Of a DNA stretch of 64,000 nt, positions 50,754 through 52,915 are shown in pieces. A model generated the notes under the pieces. It was not told the origin of the DNA. It saw only the letters and a program-made list of their open reading frames with translations, and searched no databases. Both the position numbers and the translations under genes were made by a program. Origin of the DNA: Cohaesibacter haloalkalitolerans (GTDB lineage: Bacteria; Pseudomonadota; Alphaproteobacteria; Rhizobiales; Cohaesibacteraceae). The first letter of the stretch is position 1; the number at the start of each line of letters is the position of its first letter. The DNA is taken from contig NZ_QNUM01000002.1 in the NCBI RefSeq assembly GCF_003574655.1, positions 744,001 to 808,000 of the forward strand, in the 5' to 3' direction.

Positions 50754-50903
50754 ACGGCGTATAGTAGTTTACAATTTATTAACGAATAACTATCGTGCGG
50801 CAAAATTCTAATTCACTGAAGAAGGTCAAACCTTTGGTTGTACATACACGACCAAAAGCGGCGTTGGTTTGCCTTCTGCAACAGTCTAGACGGAGGCTCA
50901 AAT

Positions 50904-51428
50904 ATGTCTTGGACTGACGAACGCGTAGAACTCTTGAAAAAGCTCTGGTCCGAAGGCCTGAGTGCAAGCCAGGTAGCGGCAGAACTTGGCGGTGTCACTC
51001 GTAATGCGGTTATCGGCAAAGTGCATCGGCTGGGCCTCTCTGGCCGCGCCAAAACAACCACAACGGCCCCACGGGCCCGTCGCCCTCGCACCCAGCAGAC
51101 CAACCGTCCGGCTCGTCCGAGCACCGGCACGTCTGCACCAAGCGTTGGCGCGACGGCTCTCAAGGTCGACAGTCAGCCACAGGTTGCCCCGCAGCCCAAG
51201 GCTGAGAAGCGTCCTGAAGCAGATCCGGTTGTCGTGCCCATTTCCAAGCGCGCATCCATCCTGACTCTGACGGAAAACACCTGCAAATGGCCAATTGGCG
51301 ATCCGGGCGATACCGACTTCCACTTCTGTGGTCACAAGTCCGAATCCGGCTCTCCCTATTGCAAATATCATTCTGAAATTGCCTACAACACCGGTGCCGA
51401 TCGTCGCCGGTCGAAAAAGGCAAGCTGA
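50904..51428 (+). CDS. gcrA: GcrA cell-cycle regulator
   Basis: A 174-residue member of the alphaproteobacteria-specific GcrA family. The N-terminal DNA-binding domain is unmistakable: MSWTDERVELLKKLWSEGLS, then QVAAELGGVTRNAVIGKVHRLGLSGR (split when read). A Pro/Thr/Ala-rich linker follows and the C-terminal RNA-polymerase sigma70-binding part has TENTCKWPIGDPGD and FHFCGHKSESGSPYCKYH with paired cysteines. It activates promoters with methylated GANTC. GGAGG lies seven bases upstream of the ATG; a longer frame from 50838 is less likely. Confidence 0.98.
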   Translation: MSWTDERVELLKKLWSEGLSASQVAAELGGVTRNAVIGKVHRLGLSGRAKTTTTAPRARRPRTQQTNRPARPSTGTSAPSVGATALKVDSQPQVAPQPKAEKRPEADPVVVPISKRASILTLTENTCKWPIGDPGDTDFHFCGHKSESGSPYCKYHSEIAYNTGADRRRSKKAS

Positions 51429-51754: not shown

Positions 51755-51783
51755 CTTGAAGCCTGCCACGAATAGCCCCATAT
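51755..51783 (+). promoter_or_regulatory. RpoH (sigma-32)-type promoter for hsp20
   Basis: CTTGAA (51755-51760), 15 bases, then CCCCATAT (51776-51783), matching the heat-shock consensus CTTGAAA-N-CCCCATNT. Transcription would start near 51790. Confidence 0.75.
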
Positions 51784-51970
51784 TATTCACATGTCGAATG
51801 CTTGGATTGAGGTTTGACATGAGGTGTGGCGAAAAGCCTGCCGTGTCTTGGGTTGTGATACAGCCAATCGCTGATGATCACCCAGGGAAATTCACCGTGG
51901 AGCTGCTCGGCACCGAGGCCATCGCGTCGGCTCTGCATTTTGGGGGAACCAGAGCTTGCAAGGTTCAAAG

Positions 51971-52000
51971 TCCCTTTTGCGTGTCGCTTACGAAGAAGGA
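51971..52000 (+). promoter_or_regulatory. Candidate RNA thermometer covering the hsp20 ribosome site
   Basis: TCCCTTTTGCG (51971-51981) can pair with CGAAGAAGGA (51991-52000), with one bulged C and a G-A mismatch, around a nine-base loop. The masked AAGAAGGA is the ribosome site, six bases before the ATG at 52007. An imperfect stem with a G-U pair would melt on warming. It is not the exact ROSE consensus. Confidence 0.55.
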
Positions 52001-52006
52001 CCGCCT

Positions 52007-52459
52007 ATGTCTCGAATGTCTGCCTTTTCCAGCCCTTTTCTGCTCGGCTTCGATGAAGTCGAGCGGGTGCTTGACCGCGTCGCCAAAGGCGCCAACGAGG
52101 GCTACCCTCCCTACAATATCGAGAGACTGGACCCCACCGAGAGCAAACTGCTCGAAGGAAACGGGGGCACCGGGGATGTGCTGCGCATAACCCTCGCCGT
52201 GGCCGGCTTCACCCGCGATCAGCTTGATGTGACACTGGAAGAAAGCCAGCTTGTCATTCGCGGTCGCCAGGTGGATGATCAGAGCCGCCAGTATCTCCAT
52301 CGTGGTATCGCCGCCCGCCAGTTCCAGCGCTCGTTCGTGCTGGCCGAGGGCATTGAAATTCTTGGTGCCGAACTGAAAGATGGGCTATTGTCCATTGATC
52401 TGGCTCGGCCGGAACCCGAGAAAGTCGTCCGCAAAATAGCCATCGACGTAAAAGAGTAA
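52007..52459 (+). CDS. Hsp20 family small heat-shock protein
   Basis: A 150-residue alpha-crystallin-domain chaperone (IbpA type). The N-terminal PFLLGFDEVERVLDRVAKG leads to the domain with YNIERLDPTE, LRITLAVAGFTRDQLDVTLEE and the hydrophobic DGLLSIDLARPEPE; the expected Arg-x-Phe motif region QFQRSFVLAEG is present. It binds unfolded proteins under heat stress. Its control region carries a RpoH promoter and possible thermometer. DUF1150 follows 67 bases later, a common rhizobial pairing. The ATG at 52007 was chosen because GAAGGA is correctly spaced. Confidence 0.95.
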   Translation: MSRMSAFSSPFLLGFDEVERVLDRVAKGANEGYPPYNIERLDPTESKLLEGNGGTGDVLRITLAVAGFTRDQLDVTLEESQLVIRGRQVDDQSRQYLHRGIAARQFQRSFVLAEGIEILGAELKDGLLSIDLARPEPEKVVRKIAIDVKE

Positions 52460-52526: not shown

Positions 52527-52802
52527 ATGAAAGCAGATGCCATGAATGAAGAAGAAATGTATGACGACGAGATGGAAGACGGTCTGGAATCCATCATGTT
52601 GGAACGTCGTATGGCCTATGTGCGTCAGGTGAGCATGGAAGAAGTCATGGATATGTTCCCCGAAGCGCCGGATCTTCCGCAGCATCAGGAATTGTGGGCG
52701 CTGCTGGATGTCCAGGGACAGCCGATTGCCTTGGCCGGATCAGAATCCGCCGTCAAGCTCAGCGCCATGCGTCACGACATCGAAACCGTGAGCGTCCACT
52801 AG
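52527..52802 (+). CDS. DUF1150 family protein
   Basis: A 91-residue acidic-then-basic protein with the family pattern LERRMAYVRQVSMEEVM, LWALLDVQGQPIALAGSESAVKLSA (split when read) and a short C-terminal tail. DUF1150 is restricted to alphaproteobacteria and often follows hsp20, which hints at a stress role, but its function is unknown. The internal ATG at 52542 is an alternative start with no clear ribosome site for either. Confidence 0.85.
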   Translation: MKADAMNEEEMYDDEMEDGLESIMLERRMAYVRQVSMEEVMDMFPEAPDLPQHQELWALLDVQGQPIALAGSESAVKLSAMRHDIETVSVH

Positions 52803-52857: not shown

Positions 52858-52915
52858 CGGTCTGAGTCTGCTTCAGACCGACGCCCTTTTATTGGCCCCG
52901 TTTTCGGGGCTTTTT
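52858..52915. terminator. Hairpin and terminator between DUF1150 and chrA
   Basis: CGGTCTGA (52858-52865) pairs with TCAGACCG (52873-52880). GCCCCG (52895-52900), loop TTTT and CGGGGC (52905-52910) are followed by five Ts at 52911-52915. The second hairpin is a classic terminator for hsp20-DUF1150 transcripts and faces the convergent chrA. Confidence 0.8.

Follow-up and report, generated by a model that had tools for sequence, protein, structure and literature searches.

The window, the whole stretch of 64,000 nucleotides of Cohaesibacter haloalkalitolerans DNA that was analysed, contains a small heat-shock gene, hsp20, preceded by a long leader, and this raises the question of whether heat acts on the gene through transcription alone or also through the folding of its mRNA. 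An earlier note, made from the letters of the window, proposed control at two levels, by an RpoH promoter and by a possible RNA thermometer. Comparison with related genomes supported both the RpoH site and a thermometer in the leader well, but not the particular stem that had been drawn. As judged from sequence comparison, the leader is very probably a ROSE-type RNA thermometer gating hsp20, the first gene of an hsp20-larA operon, after transcription started by RpoH. The features discussed below are collected in Table 1.

Table 1. Genes and predicted regulatory features around hsp20 (positions in the window).
Feature	Position	Strand	Description or basis
gcrA-family gene	50838-51428		PF07750
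RpoH (sigma-32) promoter	51755..51783	+	CTTGAA (51755-51760)-N15-CCCCATAT (51776-51783)
5' hairpin H1	51791..51820	+	AUGUCGAA-U-(G51800 bulge)-CUU, loop, G-AGG-UUUGACAU
Hairpin-like block between H1 and H2	51823..51842	+	GGUGUGGCGAAAAGCCUGCC; recognisable by eye in 14 of 18 genus members
Stem of the earlier note, alternative pairing mutually exclusive with H2	about 51970-52001	+	computed fold only
ROSE-type hairpin H2	51979..52004	+	GCG(51979-51981)-U-GUC(51983-51985)-(G51986 bulge)-CUU(51987-51989), loop 51990-51995, AAG(51996-51998)-GAC(51999-52001)-CGC(52002-52004)
ROSE motif, anti-Shine-Dalgarno strand	51984..51988	+	UCGCU (U(U/C)GCU); sequence
Shine-Dalgarno sequence	51996..52000	+	AAGGA, 6 bases before ATG; sequence
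hsp20	52007..52459	+	150 aa, alpha-crystallin family; Pfam PF00011, E 1.1e-15
larA	52527..52802	+	91 aa from ATG 52527, DUF1150 family; Pfam PF06620, E 6e-19
Terminator-like hairpin 3' of larA	52894..52911	+	weak, because 2 such sites occur in the region against 1.7 expected (shuffles)

The gene downstream of hsp20 starts 67 bases beyond its end (an alternative start, ATG at 52542, is possible) and encodes a protein with the C-terminus VSVH. The DUF1150 domain, the position after a small heat-shock gene and the C-terminal V-x-V-H identify the product, at the level of sequence, as the Lon activator LarA. The parts of the Caulobacter study that concern this protein describe LarA as a Lon activator with V86, V88 and the terminal histidine as critical residues, encoded in a predicted sigma-32-dependent operon with shsp2, so that the Caulobacter locus resembles the window in gene order, sigma-32 control and C-terminus (PMC10665427). 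The word "thermometer" is absent from the main text of that paper, and the two loci were compared by its description of the operon (PMC10665427). In the window, hsp20 and larA would likewise share one transcript. Among the 153 genomes of the class that were sampled, an hsp20 match (of either kind) was found in 114 and a DUF1150 match in 84; when the two listings were compared side by side, 74 of the 84 DUF1150 places lay within about 1 kb downstream of a listed hsp20 place, i.e. the order hsp20-larA occurs in about half of the sampled genomes (74/153). The nearest named relatives are Roseibium, Labrenzia, Stappia and Pannonibacter.

The promoter (CTTGAA-N15-CCCCATAT) and the leader of about 215 bases described in the earlier note were both confirmed. 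Of the 117 orthologues in the first set, which covers the order and close relatives as well as the window's genus, 113 have a site of the form CTTGNN-N14/15-NNCCATAT upstream, whereas only 11 of the 85 orthologues from the rest of the class do; in total 124 of 202 leaders have one, versus an average of 0.14 per 202 shuffled leaders. Judged by this conservation, the RpoH promoter at 51755-51783 is real and conserved. The end of its -10 box is separated from the ATG of hsp20 by 223 bases, and the length of the leader (approximately 215 nt) assumes a predicted transcription start about 7 bases past the box. The distance from the -10 box to the ATG is 107-232 nt in 18 members of the genus, versus a median of 85 in 106 others. 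The segment 51821-51978, between the two hairpins, is a fast-evolving extra sequence of the genus and is absent from most relatives outside it.

When the leaders were lined up, most relatives were found to have GTCGCTT...AAGGAC, or a sequence close to it, upstream of the ATG, i.e. the two strands of hairpin H2. Within the genus (18 species, 16 distinct rows), the pair cells of H2 are filled in 144 of 144 cases, versus 40.3–60.6% in slid controls. One pair changes on both sides (from G-C to A-U), and slid versions score similarly on covariation; the covariation within the genus is weak because 7 of the 9 pairs never vary. Class-wide, in an alignment of 75 model matches (A3, which was fitted to the model and so leans towards the structure), 80.8% of the cells are paired, versus 49.3–59.8% when slid, and both sides are changed in 133 cells, versus 74.1 in shuffles. 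At the pair outside the motif, 42 of the 75 matches have C-G and 26 have G-C. For H2 alone, two counts did not rise above the shuffles: pairs altered on both sides (7) and pair types (28). The matches come from a search with model R1 of 100 sources, of which 73 had a match at E up to 1 and 27 (some of these training loci) had none; three of the 75 lie elsewhere in L017 and L156, one (L139) is the other hsp20 of the window's own genome, and all 75 were counted.

An anchor-based count points in the same direction. Removal of 52 of the 202 leaders as redundant (more than 0.92 similar over the last 42 bases) left 150, of which 138 contain the motif YGCY...RGG. In three of the 12 leaders without it (L204, L206 and L207) the model does find the hairpin, the motif search having missed it because of the start codon chosen. 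The first pair flanking the motif, which played no part in choosing the 138 leaders, is a standard pair in 120 of them (G-C in 68, C-G in 48), versus 9–94 when slid; neither the flanks farther out nor the motif's own pairs were clearly above slid controls in this count. A MAFFT alignment of these leaders (A2, with nine of the 138 rows left out as poorly anchored: L061, L078, L169, L185, L208, L210, L217, L219 and L226) put some genus rows one base out, and the counts for H2 were for this reason taken from A3, A5 (the plain genus alignment) and A6 (see below). The folding program picks the core of H2 in 17 of the 18 genus members (stretches of 62+12 bases), the exception being the window's own sequence. 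A model of H2 alone is too short to be distinctive genome-wide: in the window's own genome the leader is its third-best match (E 1.6), and of the 10 other matches up to E 10, three lie near the start of an open frame of at least 60 codons. Taken as a prediction from aligned sequences, H2 is well supported as a conserved, covarying structure at the ribosome site, which it would hide.

The second conserved hairpin, H1, is located at or beside the predicted transcription start. Within the genus (18 members), 83.7% of its cells are paired, versus 17.5–45.3% when slid, and 6 of its 13 pairs are changed on both sides, with 20 such cells versus 9.6 in shuffles; pair types are no more numerous than in the shuffles. 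A counterpart (the same bulged-G motif with at least 4 outer pairs) is present in 106 of the 138 leaders, versus about 2.3 expected from mononucleotide shuffles. The first pattern searched (YGCC...GGG with 3 outer pairs) was found in 43/52 and 54/74 leaders elsewhere and in 0/12 of the window's genus, which it missed because the genus has UGCU...AGG; the wider pattern, which required 4 outer pairs, was found in 10/12 leaders of the window's genus and in 46/52 and 50/74 elsewhere. The first hairpin carries a second copy of the bulged-G motif (YGCY/RGG) that marks the Shine-Dalgarno hairpin, and it does so in the leaders of Alphaproteobacteria as well as in E. coli ibpA and the consensus structures of RF00435 and RF02523. 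Shared in this way, the covarying 5' hairpin calls for a function. In the computed fold of the window's leader H1 is lost to long-range pairing once the first ten codons are included (pair probability 0.00). The GACAU of H1 (51816-51820) could pair with the start-codon region AUGUC (52007-52011) instead of AUGUC (51791-51795), and this is probably chance, since GACAU is missing at this place from most other members of the genus.

The two hairpins were also analysed together. In alignment A6 (45 alphaproteobacterial leaders), 94.9% of the cells of H1 and H2 are paired, 13 of 18 pairs are changed on both sides, and on all five measures used the real alignment lies above every one of 500 shuffles. 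This alignment comprises 45 of 74 candidate leaders, those with a short spacer, the other 29 having been left out for clearer spacing; the candidates had been preselected for a spacer no longer than 40 and for an H1 with 4 or more outer pairs, and selection thus accounts in part for the paired percentage of H1. The shuffle comparison of H1 counterparts given above (106 of 138 versus about 2.3) serves as the control for this preselection. The two-hairpin model R2, run on 120 genomes of the order, matched 48 places, spread over 46 genomes, at E up to 0.05. The best 30 of these 48 all lie 2–7 bases before an orthologous hsp20, and 25 of these 30 are in genomes without a training row (one of the 25 is near-identical to such a row, and some matched species may be shared with training contigs). 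Under stricter filters, no match was obtained in 74 of the 120 genomes, including the window's own and two others of its genus; in the window's own genome the model finds nothing at this leader, its best match (E 0.41) lying elsewhere. The sequence inserted between the hairpins presumably breaks the model in this genus.

The class to which the leader belongs follows from these features. The U(U/C)GCU motif is a major mark of ROSE-like elements, according to a passage in PMC3669281. In the window, UCGCU pairs with AAGGA around a bulged G (G51986) in the leader of a small heat-shock gene, a 5' hairpin is present (ROSE leaders have two to four hairpins), and the Shine-Dalgarno hairpin covaries. 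The earlier note had overlooked both the motif in GUCGCUU and the hairpin at 51791-51820, and had stated that the leader does not match ROSE. As regards the motif this was mistaken, since the UCGCU in GUCGCUU (51983-51989) pairs with AAGGAC (51996-52001), and it is right only for scoring by Rfam. The suggestion of a possible new type found no support, since U(U/C)GCU, the ROSE motif, is part of the conserved hairpin; the leader is ROSE-type because relatives keep hairpins with this motif before hsp20. Its motif, architecture, gene and promoter place it in the ROSE class, with the short two-hairpin form as its closest counterpart; Rfam scores assign it to none of the listed families.

The window leader had no match to any Rfam family at E up to 10. 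No hsp20-larA leader was matched by a ROSE model in scans of 16 loci and of 20 loci, and another scan placed ROSE_3 at such a leader in 2 of 20 loci, below the cut-off of 43 (L258, 29.5 bits; L246, 24.2 bits). Over the 120 genomes of the order, RF02523 gave many weak matches and none over its cut-off, the only one listed for the window's own genome lying elsewhere; at least 4 of the listed matches coincide with places found by R2 (G219, G217, G288 and G278) and most do not. RF00435 exceeded its cut-off nowhere in the window's own genome. The other hsp20 found in this genome (G000:C19:372834-372941; L139 535-642, minus strand) is preceded, as recognised by eye, by an RpoH-like CTTGAA-N15-TTCCATAT and has an Rfam ROSE (RF00435) match directly upstream at 27.0 bits, below the cut-off of 45; both hsp20 genes found in the genome thus appear to be under RpoH and ROSE.

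Among known elements, RF02523 (ROSE_3), which we take to be the Pseudomonas ibpA element of PMC3669281, shares with the window its two hairpins, the first (GGAUGCC...GGGUCC) with a bulged G and the second with UCGCU paired to AGGAG, but it occurs in a gene context other than hsp20-larA and its model gives the window no score. The RF00435 consensus likewise has a bulged-G first hairpin and a last hairpin of UUGCUC/GAGGA, but extends over 94 positions with further sequence between the hairpins, and the window leader does not match it. The E. coli ibpA element (NC_000913.3, read and folded) has a bulged-G first hairpin and UCGCU...AGGA in the last one, whereas its computed fold contains three hairpins and its operon is ibpAB. 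The P. putida element, as described in part of its report, combines a small heat-shock gene with a sigma-32 promoter, as the window does, but its leader is 62 nt long, whereas in the window's genus the hairpins lie far apart in the longer leaders given above (PMC3669281).

A mechanism can be proposed on this basis. RpoH would start the transcript and H1 would fold first at its 5' end, as a regular part of the element. At normal temperature GUC-G-CUU would pair with AAG-GAC and hide the Shine-Dalgarno sequence AAGGA, while the bulged G and the short interrupted helices would keep H2 weak; on heating, H2 would open, ribosomes would bind and hsp20 would be translated. The opening on heating and the effect on translation are what the resemblance to the ROSE family suggests. 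Translation of larA might follow that of hsp20 by coupling, or larA might just be carried on the same mRNA.

Computed melting curves decide nothing here, since a known element, E. coli ibpA, hardly melts either: between 20 and 46 °C the unpaired fraction of the Shine-Dalgarno sequence rises from 0.02 to 0.14 in the window and from 0.01 to 0.05 in ibpA. In one leader (L096) the computed opening increases from 0.22 to 0.61 on heating. The leader of Roseibium aggregatum (L003, before 2001) stands apart from the rest of the folded hsp20-larA leaders: in its computed fold the Shine-Dalgarno sequence is open throughout (0.93 unpaired at 20 °C and 0.79 at 46 °C).

Three other explanations of the leader were weighed. 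First, the hairpins might be a binding site for the small heat-shock protein, which would repress its own translation, so that temperature would act via titration of the chaperone and not via RNA melting. The E. coli protein IbpA has been reported to repress its own translation. The conservation not only of H2 but also of H1, which leaves the ribosome site uncovered, would suit such a role, and autorepression would be compatible with a thermometer; however, hairpins with the U(U/C)GCU motif melt locally in in vitro probing, as stated in a passage of PMC3669281, and we consider this explanation very unlikely.

Second, only transcription might be controlled by heat, the leader structure setting a constant low rate of translation or protecting the mRNA. 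For Caulobacter, the relevant part of the LarA study explains the transient rise of LarA by sigma-32-dependent transcription and Lon proteolysis alone (PMC10665427). The class-wide covariation around a retained bulged G beside the Shine-Dalgarno sequence, on the other hand, is the appearance of a ROSE element, and it makes purely transcriptional control highly improbable. As reported in part of the M. loti paper, four of eight small heat-shock genes of this bacterium are not induced by heat (two unaltered and two lowered); one of these could be the orthologue of the window's hsp20, and this would count against a thermometer.

Third, the stem drawn in the earlier note (TCCCTTTTGCG, covering the ribosome site) might be the thermometer that operates in this species and those nearest to it, having replaced the ROSE hairpin locally or competing with it. 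In this stem the Shine-Dalgarno sequence pairs with the strand at 51971-51978 (UCCCUUUU). It does form as a computed fold: in the window its energy at 37 °C is -10.0 kcal/mol, versus -8.3 kcal/mol for the ROSE hairpin, the window sequence favours it over H2 by 1.4–2.2 kcal/mol, and in all four stretches folded, at every temperature tried, its mean pair probability is 0.52–0.63, versus 0.00–0.10 for H2. It is not conserved in relatives, however. In the genus (18 members, 16 distinct rows) 51.5% of its cells are filled, near the 32.9–49.3% of slid controls, and as a conserved structure it was rejected; its 5' strand is recognisable by eye in only 3 of the 18 members (L001, L087 and L093). In one of these three (L087) the last 36 leader bases are identical to those of the window, yet the folding program picks the ROSE hairpin (62+12-base stretch). 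Covariation across relatives, which the earlier note had itself set as the test, speaks for the ROSE hairpins H1 and H2 and not for this stem, and that it acts as the thermometer is hardly credible. A fourU element was also rejected, as UUUU (51975-51978) pairs with AAGA (51993-51996) in this stem only, whose pairs are not conserved. A chance motif is ruled out by the motif count, the H1 counterparts, the filling of H2 in the genus, the A6 shuffles and the positions of the R2 matches.

In the papers searched, no thermometer was found to be named for hsp20-larA, though some hsp20-larA leader may already be listed among the more than 40 ROSE candidates of 2005. Waldminghaus and colleagues reportedly gave a list of over 40 such candidates in that year. 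The word "thermometer" is absent from the main text of a Caulobacter review that names sHSP2. A Caulobacter ROSE element is mentioned, the gene not being named in the passage concerned (PMC3669281), and part of the M. loti paper describes ROSE elements for all class-A genes of that bacterium.

With the ROSE-type reading of the leader, the hsp20-larA operon joins the genes preceded by a ROSE-type leader, though Rfam models miss or under-score such leaders. A wider generalisation can be put forward tentatively, and is in our view rather doubtful: that throughout the Alphaproteobacteria ROSE gates the small-heat-shock/LarA operon, so that heat, besides sigma-32, would permit synthesis of the Lon activator, and that H1 would be a second temperature-sensitive or strand-exchanging unit and not an inert clamp. 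Translational temperature control of LarA is directly testable in Caulobacter. The findings suggest that translation, and not transcription alone, may link production of the Lon activator to temperature.
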